64,000 nt of DNA from an uncultured Halobacteriovorax sp. (GTDB lineage: Bacteria; Bdellovibrionota; Bacteriovoracia; Bacteriovoracales; Bacteriovoracaceae). The DNA is taken from the NCBI GenBank assembly GCA_913061265.1, contig CAJXVS010000006.1, positions 1 to 64,000 on the forward strand, given 5' to 3'. The first letter of the stretch is position 1; each line of letters begins with the position of its first letter. The notes beneath the pieces are model-generated. The model did not search any database, had not been told where the DNA came from, and was given only the letters and a program-made list of their open reading frames with translations. This document shows, in pieces, positions 1 through 35,019 of this stretch. A program made the translations under genes and the position numbers.

Positions 1-3000
1 TGCTTAAAGTAAACTCAGGGTTTCCTGTAACAGTGATGACTTCATTATGAACCATAACGATATCAATCACGTCAGGGTTATTATGCGGGCCATCTCCAGA
101 AGTTGAAGAGATATTAGTGATGCTAGGCTCGCTCGTATCGATCACAATATTATTTTGATCTGATAATGAATCAGTTGATCCGTTATCAGGAGTGTTTAAA
201 TCTAAAAGGTTTCCAGCAGGGTCAACCATAGTGGCGCCGCCAACTAAGCTGATAAGTTCTGCATTAGCATAACCTAGATCAGTTGAGTTATGACCATCAG
301 CCACTGTGTATTCAAAAGTAAGAGAAGTTGATCCTGATCCTGAAGTAAAAACGGCCTTGCCAACATCGAGAGTAAACTCAGGATTTCCCGTTACCGTAAT
401 ATCTTCAGTCGCAGTCATCACAATAGTGACAACATCAGGATTATTATGAGGTCCATCCCCTGTCGTCGTTGTTACGTTTGAAATGGTAGGCTCTAAAGTA
501 TCAATCGTAATATTATTTTGATCTGAAAGTGAATCAGTTGATCCATTATCAGGAGTATTAAGATCTAATAAGTTATCAGCAATATCGCGCATAGTGGCGC
601 CGCCAACAAGAGTAATAAGTTCTGCGTTAGCATAACCTAAGTTAGTGGCGTTATGACCATCAAGAACAGTGTACTGAAAAGTTAGGCTCGTCGAAGCTGA
701 TCCAGAAGTATAAACCGCCTTACCAACATCAAGAGTAAATTCAGGGTTCCCTGTAATTGAAACTGCTTCAGAGAGAGTAAAAACAATATCTAAAACATCA
801 GGGTTATTATGAGGCCCGTCTCCAGAGATTGTTGTAACATTTGTTACTGTCGGCTCTACCGTATCAATAACAATCGCCTTCTGATCTGAAAGAGAGTTTG
901 TCGAGCCATTATCTGGCGTATCAAGAACAAGAGGATTTGCCCCACTATCAACAATCGTTGAACCACCAGCGTGAGTGACAAGTTCGGCGTTAGAATAACC
1001 TAGATCACCCGTATTTTCTCCGTCACTAATCGTGTACTGAAAAGTTAAAACTGAAGAGGTTGATCCACTTGTATAAATAGCTTTACCACCAGTGTTTAAA
1101 GTAAACTCTGGGTTTCCTGTTACTGAGACCGCTTCACTCATAGTGAAAACAATATCGATAATATCAGGATTATTATAAGCGCCATCATTAGTGCTTGAAC
1201 TTATATTAGTCACTTCTGGTGGCGCGGTATCAATAATAATCTGTTGATCAAAAGAAATTGAATCTCCGCCAGTAAGCGGAGTATCTAAAGTTAAAGCAGC
1301 ATCATTGGTGGCCACATCTTTAATAGTCGCCCCTGCTAAGCTAAGGGCCGTAGTACTTGTATAATCAAGATCCGTTGTTGTATGCCCGGCCCCCACTGTA
1401 TAATCAAAAGTAAGAGTGCTTGTTCCTGACCCACTTGTAAAACTAACGATAGCATCCGTCGTTCCTGTCTCAAGAGTGATCACAGGATTTCCGCCCGCTA
1501 CAACAACTCTTTCAGAGAAGACAACTCTAACAGGAATAACTTCAAGGTTTGTATAAGTGCCGTTGTTCTTATCAACATTAACTTCAGCAACCGTTGGATC
1601 CGTTGTATCAATATCAATAGTTAAATCATCTGAGATAGAGTTAGCTAGGCCTGGATTGACAAGAGCAAGGTTAGCGGCGTTTCCGGCCGGATCCCCAATT
1701 GAGCCTGTTCCCACACTTAAAGGGCTTACAAGAATATAATCAAGAACATCTTGGTTCTCGTTTGCTGCCACTGTGTATCTAAAAGTTAAAGTATCAGTTC
1801 CTGTTCCGCTTGAATAACTAACAGCAAGTCCAGCTCCGATATTCAAAGTAATAACCGGAGTAAAGGTCACATCAACTGGCTCCGTAAAATCAACTAAGAT
1901 ATCAATCACTGTTCCTTCTGGGTACTCACCAGTTCCCGTGGTTGATTTAACTTCAGAGACCGTTGGATGAACTGTATCAATAACAATGGCCTTCTGCTCG
2001 CTTAGTGAGTTACCAGAAGTATTATCAGGTGTATTAAGGTCTAAAAGATTATCCCCAGCGTCTCTCATCGTGGCGCCGCCAACAAGAGTGACGAGTTCTG
2101 CATCAAGATAACCAAGGTCTGTATCATTATGACCATCAACAACCGTGTACTGAAAAGTAAGTAGAGTTGAAGGAGAGCCAGAAGTATAAACGGCCTTTCC
2201 AACATCTAATGTAAACTCAGGAGTTCCCGTTACTGAAACAGGCTCTGAGATGGTAAAGACAATATCGATAATAGAGGTATCATTATAAGCGCCATCATCT
2301 GTGCTTGAAGAAACATTAGTTATTGTAGGTTCAGTAGTATCAATAACAAGGGCCCTTCTATCTGAAAGAGAGTTACCACTTAGATTATCAGGGGTATCAA
2401 GAACAGCATCATTTGTTCCTGGGTCTTTTAAAGATCCGCCAGCTAGGTTGATCACAGCGGCGTTTGAGTAACTAAGATCAGTCGTGTTCTCTCCATCACT
2501 AATTGTGTATTGAAAGGTAAGGGCCGCTGATCCAGATCCACTTGTATAAACAGCTTTTCCAGTAGTGTTTAAAGTAAGCTCTGGGTTTCCTGTTACGGTT
2601 ATTAATTCATTAAAAGTAATAACAACATCAATAATGTCTGGATTATTATAAGTTCCATCATCAGTAGAAGAATCAATATTTGAGACAGTAGGTTCAGTCG
2701 TATCAACAATGATGGCGTTTTGATCACTAAGGGAATTACCACTTAGATTATCAGGAGTATTAAGATCAAGTAGGTTTCCAGCAGGGTCAACTAGAGTTGA
2801 TCCACCAGCAAGAACCACAAGTTCAGCGTTAGCATAACTTAGATCCGTTGAATCTTCCCCATCACTAACAGTGTATTGATAAGTAAGAATGGTTGAACCA
2901 GATCCAGAAGTATAGACGGCCTTTCCTCCCGTATCTAAAGTAAACTCTGGGTTTCCAGTAACAGTGATCACTTCATCATGAGTCATAACAACGTCGATGA

Positions 3001-6000
3001 CTTCAGGGTTCGTAAAAGGCCCGTCCCCTGTTGAAGAAGAAATATTTGTAATAGCAGGCTCGTCTGTATCGATCACAATATTATGTTGATCTGATAGAGA
3101 ATTAGTTGATCCATTATCTGGCGTATCTAATAAAAGAGAGTTTCCAGCAGGGTCAACAAGAGTTGATCCGCCTGCAAGAACGACTAGCTCCGCGTTTGCA
3201 TAACTTAGGTCAGTTGAATCTTCCCCGTCAGCAATCGTGTATTGATAGCCAAGAGTATTCGTTCCTGATCCACTTACATAAACAGCTTTTCCACCCGTGC
3301 TTAAAGTAAACTCAGGGTTTCCTGTAACAGTGATGACTTCATTATGAACCATGACGATATCAATCACGTCAGGGTTGTTATGCGGGCCATCTCCAGAGGT
3401 TGAAGAGATATTAGTGATGCTTGGCTCGCTCGTATCGATCACAATATTATTTTGATCTGATAAGGAATCAGTTGATCCGTTATCAGGAGTGTTTAAATCT
3501 AAAAGGTTTCCAGCAGGATCAACCATAGTGGCGCCGCCAACTAAGGTGATAAGTTCTGCATTAGCATAACCTAGATCCGTTGAGTTATGACCATCAGCTA
3601 CAGTGTACTCAAAAGTTAAACTTGTACTTCCTGATCCACTTGCGTAGATGGCCTTACCAACACTTAGGGTAAACTCAGGATTTCCCGTTACCGTAATATC
3701 TTCAGTCGCTGTCATAACAACTGTTACAACATCAGGATTATTATGAGGTCCATCCCCTGTCGTCGTTGTTACGTTAGAAATGGTAGGCTCTAAAGTATCA
3801 ATCGTAATATTGTTTTGATCTGAAAGTGAATCAGTAGATCCATTATCAGGAGTATTAAGATCAAGAAGGTTCTCTCCAGCGTCAATAATAGTAGCGCCGC
3901 CAACAAGAGTGATTAACTCTGCATTTGCATAACCTAAGTTCGTAGCGTTTTGCCCATCAAGAACAGTGTACTGAAAAGTTAGGCTAGTCGATGTAGATCC
4001 AGAAGTATAAACCGCTTTTCCAACATCAAGAGTAAACTCTGGGTTACCCGTAACTGAGACTGCTTCAGAGATAGTGAAAACAATATCTAAAACATCCGGA
4101 TTATTATGAGGACCATTTCCTGAAGTCGTCGTTACATTTGTTACTGTAGGTTCTACCGTATCAATAACAATCGCTTTTTGATCAGAGAGTGAGTTTCCAC
4201 TTAGATTATCTGGTGTCGCTGTATCAAGGTTATTTAAACTCACATCTTGAATAGACCCGCCGGCCATAACAACCACTTCAGCATCAGAGTAACCTAGATC
4301 AGTTGTATTCTCTCCATCACTAACCGTGTATTGAAAGGTTAAGAGAGTCGAGGCCGAACCACTAGTATAGACCGCTTTCCCGCCAGTATTTAAAGTAAAC
4401 TCAGGATTTCCAGTGACTGAGACCGCTTCGTTAATAGTGAAGACAATGTCAATGATATCAGGATTATTATAAGTATTATCTGATGAGCTTGAACTAATAT
4501 TTGTCACTTCTGGAGGAAGAGTATCAATCTCAATTTGTTGATCAAAAGAAATTGAATTCGTCCCTGTAAGTGGAGTGTCTAAGGTTAAAGTAGCGTCGTT
4601 AGTGGCGATATCTTTAATAGTCGCCCCTACTATGCTTAAGGCCGTAGTATTAATATAATCAAGATCACTAGTTCCCTGCCCAGCTCCAACTGTATAATTA
4701 AAAGTTAAGGTGCTCGTTCCTGATCCAGACGTAAAGCTCACGTTTACATCAGTCGCTCCCGTCTCTAGAGTGATCACTGGATTTGCAGCCGCTACTACAA
4801 CAGGTTCAGAGAAGACAACTCTAATAGGAATCAATTCAGCAAGAGTATAAGCGCCATCATTCTTATCAGCATTAACTTCAGAAACTGTTGGCGCCGTTGT
4901 ATCAATATCAATAGTTAGATCATCTGAAATTGAATTAAGCGCACCAGGAGCAGCAAGTGTTAAGCTTGAAGCGTTCCCAGCCGGATCATCAATTGATCCT
5001 AGATTTAAAGTAAGGCCTGCTGCCGTATAATCTAGAACATCTTGATTATGCCCGGCCTGAACTGTGTATCTAAAAGTTAAAGTATCTGTTCCTGATCCAC
5101 TTGAATAACTAACAGCGTATCCAGCACCTAGGTTAAGCGTAATAGCTGGAGTTCCAGAGACAACAACAGGCTCATTGAAATCAACTAAGACATCAATCTC
5201 CGTTCCCTGTGGATACTCCCCTGTTCCTGTTGTTGACTTAACTTCAGAGATAAAAGGATGGGCGGTATCAATGACGATATCTTTTTGATCTGATAGAGAA
5301 TTAGTCGATCCATTATCAGGAGTGTTGAGATCTAAAAGGTTATCTCCGGGGTCACGCATAGTAGCGCCGCCAACGAGAGTGATTAATTCAGCATTTAAAT
5401 AACCAAGTTCAGTATCATTATCTCCATCAGAGATGGTGTAGTTAAAAGTTAATAAAGTCGTTCCTGATCCTGAAGTGAAGACTGCCTTACCAACATCAAG
5501 AGTAAATTCAGGGTTACCCGTAACAGTAATATTCTCTGAGGCCGTCATGATAATTTCAATAACAGAAGTATCATTAAAGGCGATATCATTATTAGATGAA
5601 GTTACGTTAGTGATCGTAGGCTCTAGAGTATCAATAACGATATCTCTATTATCCCCTAGTGAGTTTGTCGAAGCGTCATCAGGAGTATCAAGAAGAGCAT
5701 CATTTGTTCCAGGATCTTTTAAGCTCCCACCAGCAAGGTTGATAACAGCAGCGTTTGCATAACTTAGGTCTGTATCATTATGACCATCAAGAACCGTGTA
5801 TTGAAAGGTAAGAGCGTTTGATCCAGATCCACTTGTATAAACTGCTTTACCAACATCAAGAGTTAACTCTGGGTTATTAACAACGGTGATGACTTCATTA
5901 AAGTTAATCACAACATCGATGATATCTGGATTATTATAAGTTCCATCATCTGTAGAAGAATCAACACTTGTTACAAAAGGCTCTGCTGTATCGATCACAA

Positions 6001-9000
6001 TCTGTCTATTATCTGAAAGAGAGTTTCCGCTTAGGTTATCTGGCGTATCAAGAACCAGTGAGTTATCACCTGGGTCTCTTAGAGTCCCTCCAGCAAGAGC
6101 AACCACGGCAGCATTAGAATAACCAAGATCAGTTGAATTCTCACCGTCTGCGATTGTGTATTGAAAGGTCAAAAGAGTTGAACCAGATCCACTTGTAAAG
6201 ATGGCCTTCCCGCCAGTATCTAAAGTAAGTTCAGGGTTACCAGTCACTGTAATCACTTCATCAGCTGTTATAACAACGTCGATAATAGAAGGATTCGTAA
6301 AGGTTCCATCCCCTGTACTTGAATCAACATCAGTAATTAAAGGCTCTCTTGTATCAACAACAACTGAAGCTTGATCACTAAGAGAGTTACCACTTAAATT
6401 ATCTGGCGTATTAAGATTAAGAAGGTTTCCAGCCGGGTCAACAAGAGTTGATCCACCAGCAAGAACGACAAGTTCAGCGTTCCCATAACCTAGATCAGTT
6501 GTATTCTCTCCATCAGAGATCGTGTATTGATAAGTAAGAAGAGTTGATCCAGATCCACTTGTATAAATAGCTTTTCCGCCTGTATCTAAAGTAAATTCAG
6601 GGTTCCCAGTAACTGTGATCACTTCATCATGAGTCATGACTACTTCAATCACATCAGGGTTATTATAAGTTCCCGTTAACGGATTAGAGGTAACGTTTGT
6701 AATAGTAGGCTCTACTGTATCGATAACAATTTGATTTTGATCTGATAATGAGTTGCCACTTAAGTTATCAGGAGTGTCTAATAAAAGATTATTTCCAGCA
6801 GGATCTTGTAATGTAGCACCACCAGCGAGAACAACAAGCTCAGCATCAGAATAACTTAGATCTAATGAGTTCTCTCCATCAGCAACTGTGTACTGATACC
6901 CAAGAGTATTGCTTCCAGACCCACTGACATAAACGGCTTTTCCACCCGTGCTTAAAGTAAACTCAGGAGTTCCAGAGACGAAGATGGATTCATTATGAAC
7001 CATGACGATATCAATAACGTCAGGGTTATTATGTGGTCCATTTCCAGAAGTTGAAGAAATATTCGTAATGCTAGGCTCAGCCGTATCAATCACAATCTGG
7101 TTTTGATCAGATAATGAATTAGTCGATCCATTATCTGGAGTCGCTAAGACAGTTACGTTAGTAGCGTCGTCTAGAATAGTCCCGCCAGCTAAGTTAACCA
7201 CTTCAGCGTTAGAATAACCTAGATCCGTACTATTTTCTCCATCAGTAACTGTGTACTGAAAAGTAAGAAGAGTGCTTGTCGTTCCACTTGTGTAAATAGC
7301 TTTTCCGCCAGTACTAAGAGTAAATTCAGGGTTACCCGTAACTGAAACGGCTTCAGAGAGAGTGAAGACAATGTCTAAGACATCCGGGTTATTAAAAGGC
7401 CCATCTCCAGTGCTTGAAGAGACGTTCGTAATAGTAGGTTCAGTTGTATCAATGACAATTTGCTGATTATCAGAGATTGAATTCGTTGCAAGAGGTGCTG
7501 CTAGAGTTCTATCAGCATTATTCGTCGCAACGTCTCTTATAAGACCAGTAGTATTAAGGCCAAGAGAGCTCATGTTCACATAATCAAGGTCAGTATTATT
7601 ATCCCCATCAACGACGGTGTATCTAAAGGTAAGCGTATCAGTAGTTGTTCCAGAGAAATAAGCAACCGCTCTATCACTCGATCCATTTTCTAAAGTAAGC
7701 TCTGGCGAGTTCGTCACAGAGACGCTCTCAGAGAACTCAACCAAGATATCAATAACAACCCCGTCTTTATAGTTGCCATCAGGCTTGGTTGATCTTACTT
7801 GGTTAACAGTAGGGTCCGTTGTATCAATATTGATTCTTTGATTATCAGAGATTGAATTCGCCGCCGTAGGCGCTGCAATCGTCGTAAGATCTAAAGAGTT
7901 AGTAGAAGCATCTTGAATACTTCCCCCATTAAAATTAAGAGGCGATGCCGCTATATAATCAAGATCCGCATTATCTTGCCCTGCTGCCACTGTGTATCTA
8001 AAGGTTAGAGTATCAGTGCTTGTTCCAGAGAAATAATTAACATTGATGTCTGTTCCAGATAAATTATCAAGGGTAAGAACAGGGGTTCCACTTACAAAAA
8101 CAGATTCAGTGATAAGAACATGAATGTCGATGACTTCACCAATAGTATAATCCCCATCAGCTTTATCGGCCCTAATCTCAGTCACTTCAGGTGGCGCTGT
8201 ATCAATTACGATCTGCTTATCATCAGAGATAGAATTAAAGAGACCAGGCCCGACTAAAGTGAGAGTTGAAGGATTATCGGCAATATCATTAATAGTTCCT
8301 GTTCCAAGAACAAGAGAGCCTGTGTTTTGATAATCAAGATCGGTACTAGCGTCACCAAAGGTAACCGTGTATCTAAAGGTTAAAGTGTCAGTTCCAGAAC
8401 CACTAGTATAACTAACCGCCCTTCCACCAATTGAATTCTCTAAAGTGATAATAGGATTATTAGTAACAGAGACTGCTTCACTCCATACCACTAAGATATC
8501 GATCTCTTCCCCAGTAGTATAAGCGCCGTTATCTTTATTAGTTTTAACTTCGCTTACTGTGGCAGGAATTGTATCAATATCAATGGCCTTATCATCACTG
8601 ATTGAATTAGGTGCATTGGGGGCCACTAAGGTTAGGATTCCATCTCGAGTCGCTAAATCTTTAATCGTAGAGCCACCAGCTTGAACTAATGAATTAGTCG
8701 CCGCGTAGTCTAAGTCATCATTATTTTCAGAAACAACTGTATATCTAAAGGTAAGAGTGTCTGAGTTAGATCCACTTGTGTAGTTAACAGCAACATCAGC
8801 TCCCGTAGTATTTGTTAGAGTTAACTGAGGCGTTCCAGAGACGACAACAACTTCATCCCAAACAACTTGAATGTCGATGACCTCTCCAGCTCTATAAGAG
8901 CCATCATCTTTTAAGGTAGCAACTTCCGTAACTTCAGGATCTTTTGTATCAACCACAATAGCGGCGTCATTTGATATAGACCCGGCCGCTCCAGGAACCG

Positions 9001-12000
9001 CTAAGGCACCAGCGAAGACAAGTCCGTTCGTCGCCCTATCATCAATCCCGCCCGTATTAGCAACGAGTGAATTCGTATCAACATAATCAAGATCAGGTGA
9101 GTTCTGAGTTAAAGCAATTGTATAATTAAAGGTTAGAGTCGCTGTTCCTGATCCACTTGTATAATTAACAGCAAAGTCAGCAGCGCCAATATTATCTAAG
9201 CTTAAAAGAGGAGTGTTCGTTACGTTTACGATCTCATCAAACTTAACTAAGATCTCCATCATCTCAGGGTTGGTATAATACCCATCAGTTGGAGTCGGCT
9301 CTATAACATCAACGCCCGTTACTGTAGGAGCCGTTGTATCAACAAAGATTTCTTGATTATCAGAGATTGAATTTAAGGCCCCAGGAGCCACAAGAGTTAG
9401 ATCAGCATCATTAGTAGCAAGATCTTCAATATCTCCGCCGCTTAAAGCAAGAGAAGTCGTCGCCGCATAATCAAGGTCAGGGTTATTTTCATTAGCACCA
9501 ATAGTGTATCTAAAAGTAAGAGTGCTGGTTCCTGTTCCTGAGAAGTAATCAACGCTAAAGTCAGGGTTACCAATATTATTAAGAGTGATCACAGGAGTGT
9601 TTGTTATATTAACGGCCTCAGACATCTTAACTCTAATATCCATGACCTCCCCTGCTTTATAGAATCCATCTATTGGTGTCGGCTCAACTACGTCGACTTC
9701 AGTCACTGTAGGAGTGATCGTATCAACCACAATCTCTTGATTATCAGAGATTGAATTTAATGTATTATGAGCAGCAAGGGCGCCTGCGAAGACAAGGTCA
9801 TTACTCGCTCTATCAGCAATACTTCCCGCATTAGCTGTTAATGAATTGGTATCAACATAATCAAGATCAGTTGTATTTTGTCCCGCTGCAACTGTGTAGT
9901 TAAAATCTAAGGTCGTACTGCCAGAACCAGAAGTATAATTAACAGTGAAGTCAGCCCCTAAGTCATCATCTAAAAGAATCTGAGGAAAGCCAGTTACATT
10001 AACAATCTCAGAGAAGACAATCCTAATGGGGATTAACTTCGCTTCATTATAGTAACCATCATTAACAGGAGATCTCACTTCAACAACAGTAGGCGGAACT
10101 GAATCGATCACAATATCTAGATCATCACTGATTGAGTTAGCAGCATTAGGAACCGCTAAGGCCCCAGCAACCACAGCATCATTAGAAGCGCGATCTTCAA
10201 TATCTCCGCCATTTAAGACAAGAGCATTAGTATCTTCATAATCAAGATCATTTGTATTATCACCTATTGAAATCGTATATCTAAAAGTTAAGGTATTCGT
10301 TCCTGATCCGCTTGAATAATTAACAGCGAGATCAGCATTAGGTCCTGCCATATTAAGAGTAATCTGCGGCGTTCCTGAAACATTAACAATCTCATCCCAA
10401 ACAACGGTAATATCAACATCATCCCCAGCTTTATAAAAGCCAGTCCCCGTTGGTGAAGTTACCTCAGTAACAAGAGGCTCTTTTGTATCAACAGCTATCG
10501 TTTGATTATCTGAGATTGAATTAAGAGCACCAGGAGCGGCGAGAGTTCTCGTGGCGTCATTAGTTGCAAAATCTTCAACGTCACCAACACTAAAAGCTGT
10601 CGTGTTCTCATAATCAAGATCTGGATTATTATCACCATCACTAATTGTGTAATTAAAAGTTAAGGTTTGATTATCCACAGAGATGCTTGAATAAGTAACT
10701 GCTGTATCAGCATTAGGACCATCCATATTAAGAGTGATCTCTGGAGTTCCAGCATTAACAACAACCGCCTCACTCATCTTAACTCTAATCGCGATGACTT
10801 CAGGGTTTGTATAAAAGCCATCCGTCGGCGCAGGCTCTACGGCGTCAACACTTGATACTGTTGGTGCAACTGTATCGATAATAAAGGTCGCGTTATCAGA
10901 GATTGAATTAAACCCAGATCCACCAGCTCCAATCACAGGAAGAGTTGGTATCCCATCATTCGCAGCTTGGTCACGAATATTAGCGCCATTAAGATTTAAT
11001 GAAGTCGTGCTTACATACTCTAAAGCTGTTGAGTTCTCTCCAGCACTAACAGTGTATCTAAAAGTTAAAGTCGCAGATCCTGATCCACTTGTATAATTAA
11101 CAACCGGATTAGTTCCACTTTGATTTTCTAAAGTAATATTTGGAATGCCACTAGTAACATAAACCTTCTCATCCCATTCAACGTAGATATCAAGGATTTT
11201 TCCAGCATTATACTGATCAACCCCATGAGGGTTCGTTGAAACGGCAACCGCCCTTACATTATTAACACTAGGAATCCCAACATCTTTACGAAGTTGAAAA
11301 CCATTAGCCCCGCCAATTGGATTCTCAACAGGAGCATTTCCTAACTCATCAACATGAGTGACGATGATATTAAAATCCCAAAAAGCGTCAAAGGCACCAT
11401 CAAGGGCCGAGTCTTGTAGACAACCAGCAGGAAGACCAGGACCTACTGAACAATTTGGAGAGAGGTCAATACTTCTTGAATAAGTTCCATCAGAACAATT
11501 GGCGCTAAAAGATTTTGTGGTTCCAAGACGATCCCTAACAAAGATCTGAACATCATCAGTACCAGCGCCAACAACAGTATCAGGCCAGCACGTTCCACTA
11601 ATGGGATAGGCAGCAAAATTATCTTGATTGATCCATTCATCTCTAGTGTCTGGAGCATCGTTAGAAAGATCAACAGGATTTACGACAGCAAGTTCAGGTT
11701 GCCTAACTCTTGTTGTGATATCAACTTGAGCAAGACTTGTTTGAACTGAAACATTTCCCGTTCCATTATCGTAATCAAAGTTAAGTGTTTCTTGAATAGA
11801 TGAAGAAACATAAGCAGTCGGTGAGTATTGAACAGTAAGTGTACAACTCCCTCCGCCAGCAATTGACCCTAAGGCCGCGCACGATCCATCAGCATCAACA
11901 ATTGAATCAATAGGACTTGAGTTTGTTCCCGTTCCACCAGCGTCACGCCCATCCCCGTCTCCAGGAAATCCACCAGCGTAAATAAAAGGAGCTGCAATGG

Positions 12001-13747
12001 CGGCCGTATCAGTAAAAGTTAAGGCCTGATACTCACCGGAGTTCGTTACTGTAAAAGTTTGATAGTAAGTTCCGTTATTTAAAAGATCAGTTCCATAAGC
12101 AACTGTTGAGTGGGTCCAAGTTAAAGGCGAAGGAGCAATAGCAAGATTCGCCGGAGTCACGGCCGTCCCTTGAACATCATGGGCCGGATAATTAGGCATG
12201 ATCAAGGGAGTCGAATTATTAGTCGCTGTATTAGTATAAGGCGGCGGAGTAGCAGGCCCAGTCAGAGTAGAGATCAACGATCCCCCTCCATCAAATTCAT
12301 AATCAAGTTGAATAGAATCAGTGAGCGGGTTACCAACAGTTTGCGGAGTGAACTGAATATTAAGATCACAACTAGTAGGAGTTCCATGAACGATCGATCC
12401 ATTCACTGTAGGAGTTACCCCGCCAGCACATGAGCCCGTTCCTAAAAGAGTAAAGTTTGCATTTAATCCAATGTCATTAACATTGATGGCCGAGACAGCT
12501 CCATAGTTCTCAAGAGTAAAACCATTTAATCCCCTTGTTGAACCATTAGCAAAGGTTCCATAGTCATAAGGGCTTGTTGCTTCGTTGATCACTAAGAAGG
12601 CCCAGTTCATCCCGGTCCCAGCAAGATCATAAAGATTTGGTTCATCAAAAAGGGGTGTCAGTAATCTATCGCCCACCGGTAAGCTTGGGTCCCCTACAAT
12701 TCTAAAGCCGTTATAAAAAGAAAAGCCAATCGTATCAGCGTTTCCAGTAGAGTCACCTTGAGCAAGGGCCGGGTTATAACGAACCTTGATGCTACAAGAT
12801 TCCATCTCACCCATGTCGTTCATATTAATAACGCCAGTTCCAAAAGCGGCCGGCGGTGCAAGTGGCATAGCGTAGAGATCATCACAGGTAGTATCAGCGT
12901 CGTTGATAATACTAAAACCAGTTCCCGCGCCTAAACCAAAGACCTGAACTTGCTCAGCGACTTTGTCTCCGTAGTTTCTAATTTCATAAATATAATCTTT
13001 CCAACCACCGTTAGCCGTCTGACCATAGTCAATAGTTTGTCTATGCGTTCCAGAAGTGACACCAGGAAAATAAGGGTCACTTAAAGTAGGATCAATCTTA
13101 ATCGGCATGATCGGAGTCGTTGCACTCAGAGGAAGAAGCTCGCCAGGAAAATCTTCATGAGGAGTAACAATCATATCCGGAGAATTATTTGGCGAGGCCA
13201 ATTGATAAAGCTTTCTAATTAAAATATTGGCAGGTCTCTTCCCTTCACCAGTCAGTCCAACATTTCCCGTGTAAGAGTGAATGCCCCCAGTAAAACTAAC
13301 AGCAACATTTTCAGACTTAAGGCCAGAGACTAAAGGCCTAAAAGTAATTTCAACAGTACAACTAGATCCTGCAGGAATTGCGCTTCCACAAGTTCCGCCA
13401 ACACCAGGATAAACTCCAACACCGTTATCAACACCAGCTGTTCCTTGAAAAAAATATTCAGGAATCGCGAGGCCCGTTGCATCAGAGATTGTTGCCGTAA
13501 TTCCTGAAGCGGTTTCATCACCAAAGTTTGTAATCGTAAAAGTTCTAGTGTCGCTAAAGCCAATGATCACTTCGCCCCATGGCTCAAAGATCTTGTCCGC
13601 GCCAGAAGCTGTTGAGAATTTTATGCGAGGAGTTTTTTCTTCAACAAAACCTTGAGAGCCAACACCACTTGCACCACAACCGTGAAGCACTAGTGAAGCT
13701 AGCGCAATCATGATCATGAGAATGTGATTGTTCAAAGTTTGTTTCAT
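1..13747 (-). CDS. giant repeat lipoprotein, C-terminus beyond window
   Basis: Single reading frame from ATG at 13747 to the left edge, at least 4,582 codons. Frame was checked at 13747, 10873, 7084 and 136: all lie in the same phase, and every stretch I translated is open. The N-terminus has a hydrophobic signal peptide and lipobox LHGC, with the lipid-modified Cys at residue 24, so the product should be a lipoprotein exposed at the cell envelope. Residues about 25-830 form several modules resembling choice-of-anchor D / ASPM-SPD-2-Hydin domains: they recur with patterns such as TFTITNFG and SSCTVEITFRP. From about residue 830 on come about 30 Ig-like repeats that resemble the SWM-type repeat of very large bacterial surface proteins (family match from memory). 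A role in adhesion or surface coating is inferred. No enzymatic domain was seen in the visible part; the C-terminus is outside the window. Confidence 0.9.
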   Translation of the reverse strand, partial: MKQTLNNHILMIMIALASLVLHGCGASGVGSQGFVEEKTPRIKFSTASGADKIFEPWGEVIIGFSDTRTFTITNFGDETASGITATISDATGLAIPEYFFQGTAGVDNGVGVYPGVGGTCGSAIPAGSSCTVEITFRPLVSGLKSENVAVSFTGGIHSYTGNVGLTGEGKRPANILIRKLYQLASPNNSPDMIVTPHEDFPGELLPLSATTPIMPIKIDPTLSDPYFPGVTSGTHRQTIDYGQTANGGWKDYIYEIRNYGDKVAEQVQVFGLGAGTGFSIINDADTTCDDLYAMPLAPPAAFGTGVINMNDMGEMESCSIKVRYNPALAQGDSTGNADTIGFSFYNGFRIVGDPSLPVGDRLLTPLFDEPNLYDLAGTGMNWAFLVINEATSPYDYGTFANGSTRGLNGFTLENYGAVSAINVNDIGLNANFTLLGTGSCAGGVTPTVNGSIVHGTPTSCDLNIQFTPQTVGNPLTDSIQLDYEFDGGGSLISTLTGPATPPPYTNTATNNSTPLIMPNYPAHDVQGTAVTPANLAIAPSPLTWTHSTVAYGTDLLNNGTYYQTFTVTNSGEYQALTFTDTAAIAAPFIYAGGFPGDGDGRDAGGTGTNSSPIDSIVDADGSCAALGSIAGGGSCTLTVQYSPTAYVSSSIQETLNFDYDNGTGNVSVQTSLAQVDITTRVRQPELAVVNPVDLSNDAPDTRDEWINQDNFAAYPISGTCWPDTVVGAGTDDVQIFVRDRLGTTKSFSANCSDGTYSRSIDLSPNCSVGPGLPAGCLQDSALDGAFDAFWDFNIIVTHVDELGNAPVENPIGGANGFQLRKDVGIPSVNNVRAVAVSTNPHGVDQYNAGKILDIYVEWDEKVYVTSGIPNITLENQSGTNPVVNYTSGSGSATLTFRYTVSAGENSTALEYVSTTSLNLNGANIRDQAANDGIPTLPVIGAGGSGFNSISDNATFIIDTVAPTVSSVDAVEPAPTDGFYTNPEVIAIRVKMSEAVVVNAGTPEITLNMDGPNADTAVTYSSISVDNQTLTFNYTISDGDNNPDLDYENTTAFSVGDVEDFATNDATRTLAAPGALNSISDNQTIAVDTKEPLVTEVTSPTGTGFYKAGDDVDITVVWDEIVNVSGTPQITLNMAGPNADLAVNYSSGSGTNTLTFRYTISIGDNTNDLDYEDTNALVLNGGDIEDRASNDAVVAGALAVPNAANSISDDLDIVIDSVPPTVVEVRSPVNDGYYNEAKLIPIRIVFSEIVNVTGFPQILLDDDLGADFTVNYTSGSGSTTLDFNYTVAAGQNTTDLDYVDTNSLTANAGSIADRASNDLVFAGALAAHNTLNSISDNQEIVVDTITPTVTEVDVVEPTPIDGFYKAGEVMDIRVKMSEAVNITNTPVITLNNIGNPDFSVDYFSGTGTSTLTFRYTIGANENNPDLDYAATTSLALSGGDIEDLATNDADLTLVAPGALNSISDNQEIFVDTTAPTVTGVDVIEPTPTDGYYTNPEMMEILVKFDEIVNVTNTPLLSLDNIGAADFAVNYTSGSGTATLTFNYTIALTQNSPDLDYVDTNSLVANTGGIDDRATNGLVFAGALAVPGAAGSISNDAAIVVDTKDPEVTEVATLKDDGSYRAGEVIDIQVVWDEVVVVSGTPQLTLTNTTGADVAVNYTSGSNSDTLTFRYTVVSENNDDLDYAATNSLVQAGGSTIKDLATRDGILTLVAPNAPNSISDDKAIDIDTIPATVSEVKTNKDNGAYTTGEEIDILVVWSEAVSVTNNPIITLENSIGGRAVSYTSGSGTDTLTFRYTVTFGDASTDLDYQNTGSLVLGTGTINDIADNPSTLTLVGPGLFNSISDDKQIVIDTAPPEVTEIRADKADGDYTIGEVIDIHVLITESVFVSGTPVLTLDNLSGTDINVNYFSGTSTDTLTFRYTVAAGQDNADLDYIAASPLNFNGGSIQDASTNSLDLTTIAAPTAANSISDNQRINIDTTDPTVNQVRSTKPDGNYKDGVVIDILVEFSESVSVTNSPELTLENGSSDRAVAYFSGTTTDTLTFRYTVVDGDNNTDLDYVNMSSLGLNTTGLIRDVATNNADRTLAAPLATNSISDNQQIVIDTTEPTITNVSSSTGDGPFNNPDVLDIVFTLSEAVSVTGNPEFTLSTGGKAIYTSGTTSTLLTFQYTVTDGENSTDLGYSNAEVVNLAGGTILDDATNVTVLATPDNGSTNSLSDQNQIVIDTAEPSITNISSTSGNGPHNNPDVIDIVMVHNESIFVSGTPEFTLSTGGKAVYVSGSGSNTLGYQYTVADGENSLDLSYSDAELVVLAGGATLQDPAGNNLLLDTPDNLSGNSLSDQNQIVIDTVEPTITNVTSNPLTGTYNNPDVIEVVMTHDEVITVTGNPEFTLDTGGKAIYTSGSGSTLLTYQYTISDGENTTDLGYGNAELVVLAGGSTLVDPAGNLLNLNTPDNLSGNSLSDQASVVVDTREPLITDVDSSTGDGTFTNPSIIDVVITADEVITVTGNPELTLDTGGKAIFTSGSGSTLLTFQYTIADGENSTDLGYSNAAVVALAGGTLRDPGDNSLVLDTPDNLSGNSLSDNRQIVIDTAEPFVTSVDSSTDDGTYNNPDIIDVVINFNEVITVVNNPELTLDVGKAVYTSGSGSNALTFQYTVLDGHNDTDLSYANAAVINLAGGSLKDPGTNDALLDTPDDASTNSLGDNRDIVIDTLEPTITNVTSSNNDIAFNDTSVIEIIMTASENITVTGNPEFTLDVGKAVFTSGSGTTLLTFNYTISDGDNDTELGYLNAELITLVGGATMRDPGDNLLDLNTPDNGSTNSLSDQKDIVIDTAHPFISEVKSTTGTGEYPQGTEIDVLVDFNEPVVVSGTPAITLNLGAGYAVSYSSGSGTDTLTFRYTVQAGHNQDVLDYTAAGLTLNLGSIDDPAGNASSLTLAAPGALNSISDDLTIDIDTTAPTVSEVNADKNDGAYTLAELIPIRVVFSEPVVVAAANPVITLETGATDVNVSFTSGSGTSTLTFNYTVGAGQGTSDLDYINTTALSIVGATIKDIATNDATLTLDTPLTGTNSISFDQQIEIDTLPPEVTNISSSSSDNTYNNPDIIDIVFTINEAVSVTGNPEFTLNTGGKAVYTSGSASTLLTFQYTVSDGENTTDLGYSDAEVVVMAGGSIQDVSLNNLDTATPDNLSGNSLSDQKAIVIDTVEPTVTNVTTTSGNGPHNNPDVLDIVFTISEAVSVTGNPEFTLDVGKAVYTSGSTSTSLTFQYTVLDGQNATNLGYANAELITLVGGATIIDAGENLLDLNTPDNGSTDSLSDQNNITIDTLEPTISNVTTTTGDGPHNNPDVVTVVMTATEDITVTGNPEFTLSVGKAIYASGSGSTSLTFEYTVADGHNSTDLGYANAELITLVGGATMVDPAGNLLDLNTPDNGSTDSLSDQNNIVIDTSEPSITNISSTSGDGPHNNPDVIDIVMVHNEVITVTGNPEFTLSTGGKAVYVSGSGTNTLGYQYTIADGEDSTDLSYANAELVVLAGGSTLVDPAGNSLLLDTPDNGSTNSLSDQHNIVIDTDEPAITNISSSTGDGPFTNPEVIDVVMTHDEVITVTGNPEFTLDTGGKAVYTSGSGSTILTYQYTVSDGEDSTDLSYANAELVVLAGGSTLVDPAGNLLDLNTPDNLSGNSLSDQNAIIVDTTEPTVSNIDSSTDDGTYNNPDIIDVVITFNELITVTGNPELTLNTTGKAVYTSGSGSAALTFQYTISDGENTTDLSYSNAAVINLAGGSLKDPGTNDAVLDTPDNLSGNSLSDRRALVIDTTEPTITNVSSSTDDGAYNDTSIIDIVFTISEPVSVTGTPEFTLDVGKAVYTSGSPSTLLTFQYTVVDGHNDTDLGYLDAELVTLVGGATMRDAGDNLLDLNTPDNTSGNSLSEQKAIVIDTVHPTVSEVKSTTGTGEYPEGTVIDILVDFTEPVDVTFTPVITLNIGAGLAVSYSSGTGTDTLTFRYTVAANENQDVLDYILVSPLSVGTGSIGDPAGNAANLALVNPGLANSISDDLTIDIDTTDPTVAEVNVDKNNGTYTNLEVIPVRVVFSERVVVAGGNPVITLETGTTDAIVSFTSGSGTSTLTFDYTVGAGHTTTDLDYTSTTALSLAGATIKDVATNDAALTLDTPLTGGDSISFDQQIIIDTAPPEVTNISSSTNDGAYNNPDIIDIVFTMSEAVSVTGNPEFTLNTGGKAIYTSGSTSSVLTFQYTISDGENTGDLGYSNAELVTHAGGSTIVDSGANPLVLDTPDNGSTNSLSDQKAIVIDTVEPTVTNVTTISGDGPHNNPDVLDIVFTLSEAVSITGNPEFTLDVGKAVYTSGSASTSLTFQYTVLDGHNATNLGYANAELITLVGGATMRDIADNLLDLNTPDNGSTDSLSDQNNITIDTLEPTISNVTTTTGDGPHNNPDVVTIVMTATEDITVTGNPEFTLDVGKAVFTSGSGSTSLTFEYTVADGHNSTDLGYANAELISLVGGATMVDPAGNLLDLNTPDNGSTDSLSDQNNIVIDTSEPSITNISSTSGDGPHNNPDVIDIVMVHNEVITVTGNPEFTLS
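2..3299 (-). repeat. higher-order repeat block, copy A (nine units)
   Basis: The sequence at 2 onward is almost the same as that at 3300 onward (a few substitutions over the first 290 bases). Unit-by-unit matching continues through the block at an offset of about 3,290-3,300 bp up to about 2,640, then at about 3,650 bp. Confidence 0.8.
3300..6945 (-). repeat. higher-order repeat block, copy B (ten units)
   Basis: Matches copy A unit by unit but holds one extra unit, around 5990-6352. The match resumes afterwards at a larger offset: the unit with its core at 2700 pairs with the one at 6352. A further partial echo of the block start (the same TTTCATTATGAACC-type segment) begins at about 6946. 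Confidence 0.75.
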
Positions 13748-32473: not shown

Positions 32474-32580
32474 GACCTGCAGTCAAATTGCTTCGCAACT
32501 TGATGCTGAGTCGTCGTAAAGGCTCAAGGAAGCGTAAGCGCCCGCAGAGGCACGCGGAGTATTTCTCTAAAATAATTCAA
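32474..32580 (+). repeat. dispersed two-hairpin repeat, copy 1
   Basis: Copy 1 of an element also found inverted at 34643-34742. The shared core (32515-32563) runs from CGTAAAGG through GGAAGCGTAAGCGCCCG to CACGCGGAGTAT. Ahead of it a first hairpin, TCAAATTGC-TTC-GCAACTTGA (32483-32503), takes the place of a different hairpin in copy 2; after it both share ATAATTCAA. It sits in the gap between the 31834 gene and the convergent methyltransferase gene. Confidence 0.75.
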
Positions 32581-34583: not shown

Positions 34584-34620
34584 GTTTTTCTTTTTAATAA
34601 TTTTGTTTTTGGGTAAAAAA

Positions 34621-34643
34621 AAGGTCCTTATAAAAAGGACCTT
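34621..34643 (+). terminator. hairpin terminator after the HD-GYP-like gene
   Basis: AAGGTCCTT (34621-34629) pairs with AAGGACCTT (34635-34643), preceded by a run of A. It starts about 37 bp after the stop codon. The T-rich segment typical of a terminator lies before it on the plus strand, so it may serve better for transcripts on the minus strand. Confidence 0.65.
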
Positions 34644-34742
34644 GAATTATATAACAGAGATACTCCGCGTGAGGCTACGGGCGCTAACGCTTCCGAGCCT
34701 CTTTACGATAGTCTGTATTAAAAACCTTTGGTTTTTAATGCT
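34643..34742 (-). repeat. dispersed two-hairpin repeat, copy 2
   Basis: Inverted relative to copy 1 (32474-32580). Its core occupies 34660-34707. Read on the minus strand it gives CGTAAAGAGGCTCGGAAGCG, then TTAGCGCCCG, and ends CACGCGGAGTAT. The core can fold through GAGGCT/AGCCTC, CGG/CCG and GCG/CGC into one long hairpin. It lies directly after the histone gene on that gene's own strand. Confidence 0.75.
34717..34739 (-). terminator. perfect hairpin after the histone gene
   Basis: ATTAAAAACC (34717-34726) and GGTTTTTAAT (34730-34739) pair over ten bases with a three-base loop, six bases beyond the histone stop codon. It is also the first hairpin of repeat copy 2. There is no clear T-tract behind it, so it may stabilise the mRNA end instead of stopping transcription. 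Confidence 0.55.
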
Positions 34743-34744
34743 GA

Positions 34745-34945
34745 CTATTCAGCCAAGATATCATAAGGACGAATAGTCTTACGTCCGTTAGCTGCACATT
34801 TCTTTTGTGCTTGATCTACTAACCAGTAAACATACTCATTCATAGCTTCTAATGTATCAGAAGAAACATTAAAACCTTTCCCCTTAAGAGCTTCTTTTGT
34901 TTTTGATCCAACTAGTAACATGTCTTTTGCTTTTTTCTTAGCCAT
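34745..34945 (-). CDS. bacterial histone-fold protein
   Basis: 66 residues, GAGG ahead of ATG. After a basic start (MAKKKAKDMLL), the chain fits a single histone fold: short helix (SKTKEALKGKG), long central helix (SSDTLEAMNEYVYWLVDQAQKKC), and the loop and last helix ANGRKTIRPYDILAE. RKTIRPYDI matches the RKT-x-x-x-D signature of archaeal histones and of the Bdellovibrio bacteriovorus histone Bd0055, which has a very similar C-terminal RKTVQAHD. Histones of this group dimerise and bind DNA. It has a near-consensus promoter and is probably abundant. Not HU or IHF: no beta-arm is present. Confidence 0.88.
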   Translation of the reverse strand: MAKKKAKDMLLVGSKTKEALKGKGFNVSSDTLEAMNEYVYWLVDQAQKKCAANGRKTIRPYDILAE

Positions 34946-34990
34946 AAGTTCCTCACTTAAATGTTTGTATTGTTTTCAATTAGGTTTCAA

Positions 34991-35019
34991 ATAATAATCG
35001 CGAGCCTTGCGAGAGTCAA
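34991..35019 (-). promoter_or_regulatory. near-consensus promoter of the histone gene
   Basis: On the minus strand TTGACT (35019-35014) and TATTAT (34996-34991) are 17 bp apart, five of six matches in each box. Transcription would start near 34984, giving a leader of about 39 nt. The spacer holds the direct repeat CTCGC-AAGG-CTCGC. Confidence 0.75.

Follow-up and report, generated by a model that had tools for sequence, protein, structure and literature searches.

Prokaryotic α3 histones are classified by their quaternary structure (PMC11390915). HLp from Leptospira perolatii is a DNA-wrapping face-to-face (FtF) tetramer that was crystallised free and with DNA (PDB 9QT0-9QT2, PMC12701072), and HTkC from Thermococcus kodakarensis is an archaeal FtF histone (PDB 9F2C, PMC11390915). 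In FtF histones, an Arg and an Asn (R49 and N53 in HLp) join two dimers into a ring, while bacterial dimers lack both; R49, N53 and R55 are named as the tetramer residues (PMC12701072, PMC11390915). The Arg (profile position 48) is salt-bridged to the terminal carboxyl group of the opposite dimer, i.e. to the carboxylate of the residue matching position 63 (PMC11390915), and the Asn (profile position 52) contacts an Arg of the opposite dimer (PMC11390915, PMC12701072). HBb (Bd0055) from Bdellovibrio bacteriovorus has D53 and S49 and bends DNA as a dimer (PMC10627809, PMC11317129). By the count of the HLp paper, two bacterial histones are characterised in structure and function, namely one bending dimer and one wrapping tetramer (PMC12701072). 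FtF histones are already reported in the class Bacteriovoracia (PMC11390915). A first-pass annotation of the DNA analysed here had described bacterial histones as little studied outside Bdellovibrio, which is outdated in view of the HLp crystals and the Bacteriovoracia report.

The DNA analysed here is a stretch of 64,000 nucleotides (the window) from a marine, predatory-type member of Bacteriovoracia with a genome of about 4 Mb, the closest named relatives of which are Halobacteriovorax and Bacteriovoracaceae. It carries a histone gene of one of two paralogue groups, here called A and B. The gene, its signals, its 3' region and the paralogue elsewhere in the genome are the following:

35014-35019, minus strand: -35 hexamer TTGACT; TTGAC is conserved in same-genus relatives and many group A genes
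34991-34996, minus strand: -10 hexamer TATTAT, after a 17-nt spacer and 45 nt before the ATG
34950-34954, minus strand: Shine-Dalgarno-like GAGGA; TTTAAGTGAGGAACTTATG is identical in two same-genus genomes (L003, L004)
34745-34945, minus strand: group A histone gene, 66 amino acids, MAKKKAKD...NGRKTIRPYDILAE (open reading frame, homology, model and codon data)
34717-34739, minus strand: perfect 10-bp inverted repeat ATTAAAAACC-AAA-GGTTTTTAAT in the 3' untranslated stretch (sequence and fold)
34642-34709, minus strand: REP-like structured repeat, inserted between the histone stop codon and the terminator
34613-34643, minus strand: intrinsic terminator, 9-bp stem (34621-34643) and T run
G000:C3:150247-150423 (L002): group B paralogue, ending in F63, with R49 and a near-neutral tail

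The 66-codon frame runs on the minus strand from the ATG at 34945 to the stop codon at 34747-34745. In L003 and L004, the encoded protein is 98% identical; each of these genes differs from the window gene by 18 silent codon differences and one amino acid change, and nearly all base changes are in third positions. The frame is a real gene under strong constraint. A chance open reading frame was ruled out by the 18 silent against one replacing change and by the presence of close homologues in 48 of the 129 genomes of the class. The gene is solitary, with a convergent downstream neighbour and its own terminator, and its neighbours are kept within the genus only. The Leptospira histone gene is linked to SMC; neither such a link nor a conserved operon was seen at the group A gene neighbourhoods. 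The genome of the window has three HU-family genes, and a search across it for a histone of the HBb/ZZ type (type C) found none.

The protein is a single histone fold, as predicted by the structural model and by homology. With phmmer against solved histones, the best match was HLp (9qt0, E=2.1e-12), colinear over residues 1-62, so that the HLp numbering equals that of the window protein across this range; HBb (E 1e-4) and HTkC (E 0.01) followed. The AlphaFold2 single-chain model, built from an alignment of 38 relatives, has helices at residues 13-21, 29-52 and 60-63 and a mean pLDDT of 86. Its top nine PDB matches are chains of HLp, HBb and HTkC, all of them bacterial or archaeal histones, with the best structural matches to HLp (rmsd 1.2 Å); the superposition on HBb gives 1.1 Å. 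The Pfam histone family PF00808 matched weakly, in the C-terminal half only and below its curated cut-off (E=0.0035), and the NCBIfam archaeal histone model stayed far under its cut-off. The single histone fold proposed in the first-pass annotation is thus borne out by the frame, the phmmer match, the model and the PDB matches. Since the model has a helix, a long helix and a short helix and its matches are histones, neither a different fold nor a lack of histone matches, which would have spoken against the proposal, was encountered.

The window protein carries K49, N53, R55, T57 and D62. Its modelled α3 is a single turn (residues 60-63), in agreement with the 3-4 residues of α3 in FtF histones and far from the α3 of about ten residues in nucleosomal archaeal histones. 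Bacterial dimers of the HBb type are defined by the absence of the FtF Arg and Asn, whereas here N53 is present and K49 is basic. ZZ histones (Bd3044 type), which are found in many class genomes, share the α3 histone domain but differ in D/E53 and in a zinc-finger N-terminal domain, the place of which is taken here by an 8-residue tail in a chain of 66 residues. N53, R55, T57 and D62 are present in 51/51 distinct group A and 23/23 distinct group B proteins, and the RxTxxxxD motif (R55-T57-D62) is accordingly invariant in all 74. In 18 of 19 longer or HBb-like (ZZ/dimer-type) relatives from the class, position 53 is occupied by D or E; one relative of this set that was inspected has a ZZ-type N-terminal zinc finger. 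A tree of 64 columns, with long branches to HLp and HBb, separates HLp and groups A and B from HBb and type C on a 99/90 branch and has group B as a clade (97/94). By sequence, the window protein would therefore be filed as FtF-type, a category formally defined by a ring-shaped tetramer, on the grounds of the HLp match, N53 and the tree grouping; it is one more histone of the kind already published for Bacteriovoracia. The same three observations rule out an HBb orthologue as the best reading. The earlier observation of a histone was correct and useful, but its comparison with Bd0055 placed the protein on the wrong branch, and the signature it gave as RKT-x-x-x-D is present with another spacing, RKTxxxxD, with four residues between T and D. 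A 140-aa open frame (L087, G109:C8) holds two tandem α3 histone folds, each with an RKT...RD motif, and is possibly an HBb-like double histone.

By our reading of the matches, 48 of the 129 class genomes have group A, 23 have group B, 13 have both and 56 have HBb/ZZ-like histones; A occurs without B in 35 and B without A in 10. Isolates of Halobacteriovorax and Bacteriovorax are among the carriers of group A. The genome of the window has one gene of each group, the proteins being 63% identical and sharing N53, R55, T57 and D62, so that the paralogue is FtF-like as well. Group B has R49 in 23/23 proteins, and its chain ends exactly at residue 63 in 23/23 (F63 in 22). In group A, position 49 is R in 28/51 and K in 23/51, i.e. 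the charge is kept; nearly all of the 51 proteins have Y or H at 61 and I or V at 63, and 50/51 continue for 2-5 residues beyond position 63. The group A tails comprise 4 to 42 residues and are usually basic (up to +21), while group B has short tails with a charge near zero. Among bacterial FtF histones, charged tails have been described before. The N-terminal tail had been regarded as a distinctive part of the window protein; this did not hold, as it lies at the short end of the group A range and the HLp tail also has 8 residues. The aromatic central helix is present as described, but it is a shared group feature (W41 in 38/51 group A proteins). As judged from their sequences, the two FtF paralogue groups of Bacteriovoracia are apparently new as far as searched: no published description of the split was found in the literature, supplementary tables being outside the search, nor any relevant paper on histones in Halobacteriovorax or Bacteriovorax. 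Group A histones with 70-82% identity also occur in metagenome-assembled genomes labelled Candidatus Omnitrophota (L018, L023, L024, L034), either from misbinned or mislabelled contigs or by gene transfer.

The window protein shares the fold, N53, R55, D62, the short tail and most helix-1 DNA contacts with HLp. It differs in K49, A52, Y61, W41 and its end, I63 followed by three more residues (LAE), where HLp has R49 and ends in F63. HTkC shares the fold and the FtF residues, matches only weakly in sequence and, like HLp, stops at the residue matching 63 (by sequence alignment). Since the carboxylate of residue 63 is the partner of the FtF Arg, the group A extension bears on a known contact; at this site the window protein has K49 and a chain that runs three residues past 63. 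Three of six HLp tetramer-contact positions are changed (S52A, T61Y and F63I), and the changed DNA-contact positions include T27V, G29S, K54G and T56K. With K for R49, the changed contacts and the chain past 63, a dimer or an altered tetramer is possible. From the sequences, the C-terminal extension together with K/R49 is the feature most likely to alter the geometry; it had gone without mention in the first-pass annotation. The gene itself is ordinary, as it belongs to the already described FtF bacterial histones; what sets it modestly apart is the conserved C-terminal extension in a genome that also has a canonical copy. The A/B split pinpoints exact residues for testing. With group A present in isolates, and with both FtF paralogues and HU occurring together in some genomes, Bacteriovoracia lend themselves well to studying why a bacterium would keep several histones and whether bacterial histones assemble into mixed complexes.

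The reading that we prefer, with a probability of roughly 0.7, is that of an abundant FtF histone, the ring tetramer of which would wrap DNA beside the canonical group B paralogue and the three HU-family proteins. Two chains are predicted by model and homology to pair via the long α2 helix. Two dimers would then join face to face on both sides via the end of α2, loop 2 and α3, with N53 of one dimer contacting R55 of the other and with contacts of the basic residue 49. S14, K15, K17, K21, T57 and R59, which are common to the window protein and HLp, would hold the DNA backbone around the ring with no sequence preference, and about 60 bp would be wrapped per tetramer if HLp is a guide. The gene would be transcribed singly from its σ70-like promoter.

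An HBb-type dimer that bends DNA without wrapping it would have the same single fold and the same RKTxxxxD motif, fits the close superposition on HBb and the weakened FtF contacts in group A. It is nevertheless unlikely, as HLp is the far better match, N53 is found in all group A proteins against D or E in nearly all dimer/ZZ-like relatives, and the tree groups the window protein with HLp. Just as unlikely on our estimate is a joint action of both groups, in which B would provide the canonical back contact and A would modify or cap the ring, so that tetramers of mixed composition or two chromatin types would result. The N53-R55 pair in both groups, their differences at 49, 61, 63 and the chain end and the genomes that have both genes, including that of the window, speak for it; the 35 genomes with A only and the 10 with B only imply that neither group needs the other. 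Hardly to be expected is a histone-fold protein other than a general chromatin protein, such as a gene-specific regulator or one with a role away from DNA. There are histone-fold proteins that no longer bind DNA (PMC11390915), but here the basic contact residues are retained, the group has basic tails of up to +21, the codon use is typical of an abundant protein and the gene context is unconserved outside the genus, as expected for a general factor. We tentatively consider it possible, though less likely than not, that group A is a distinct FtF sub-kind in which the extension replaces the carboxylate contact, with altered ring stability or geometry or with mixed A and B rings. If so, a cell would have two diverged bacterial histones, loosely like the histone variants of archaea and eukaryotes.

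The promoter TTGACT-17-TATTAT (35019-34991) scores 10/12 and is unremarkable alone, as three such sites were found against 2.0 expected. Sites of at least 10/12 located 15-62 nt before the start were present in 24/49 group A genes (0.84 in shuffles) and 12/23 group B genes (0.35 in shuffles), although the upstream sequences are related and the comparison gives no strict probability. The predicted promoter is thus conserved and σ70-like. Its layout in group A is TTGACG/T-17/18-TANAAT, while group B has TTGAAA with a spacing of 16/17, as in TTGAAA-16-TAGAAT some 45 nt upstream of the start (L079, L101-L119); these differing promoters hint at separate regulation of the two groups. With the ribosomal protein cluster as codon reference, the window histone had the highest CAI among 36 window genes tested (0.756, on a par with fusA at 0.753), and random synonymous versions reached this value in 0.14% (P=0.0014 against background codon use). 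Codon use and promoter suggest that the gene is probably highly expressed. The strong promoter of its own, the isolated position and the high expression had all been proposed earlier, and they are backed by these data, the convergent neighbour and the terminator.

The terminator stem is preserved in L003 and L004 via a paired T-A to C-G change, while the 10-bp inverted repeat is absent from their aligned stretch. The REP-like repeat is no part of the histone gene. Its core is GGAAGCGNNAGCGCCCG...CGCGGAGTATCTCT, and the outer stem differs between copies. Both window copies (34642-34709, minus strand, and 32514-32580, plus strand) lie just past gene stops, and further copies are located at G000:C2:71924, C3:556093 and C4:360048 and 360131. 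The histone-side copy is missing in L003 and L004, the exact core pattern was found in no other genome among 125 of the class, and Rfam gave nothing credible for the 3' region or the repeat. The source genome has two genes for Y1 transposases of the REP-associated type. A giant open reading frame (2-13747, minus strand) that codes for 4582 aa or more runs off the window start.
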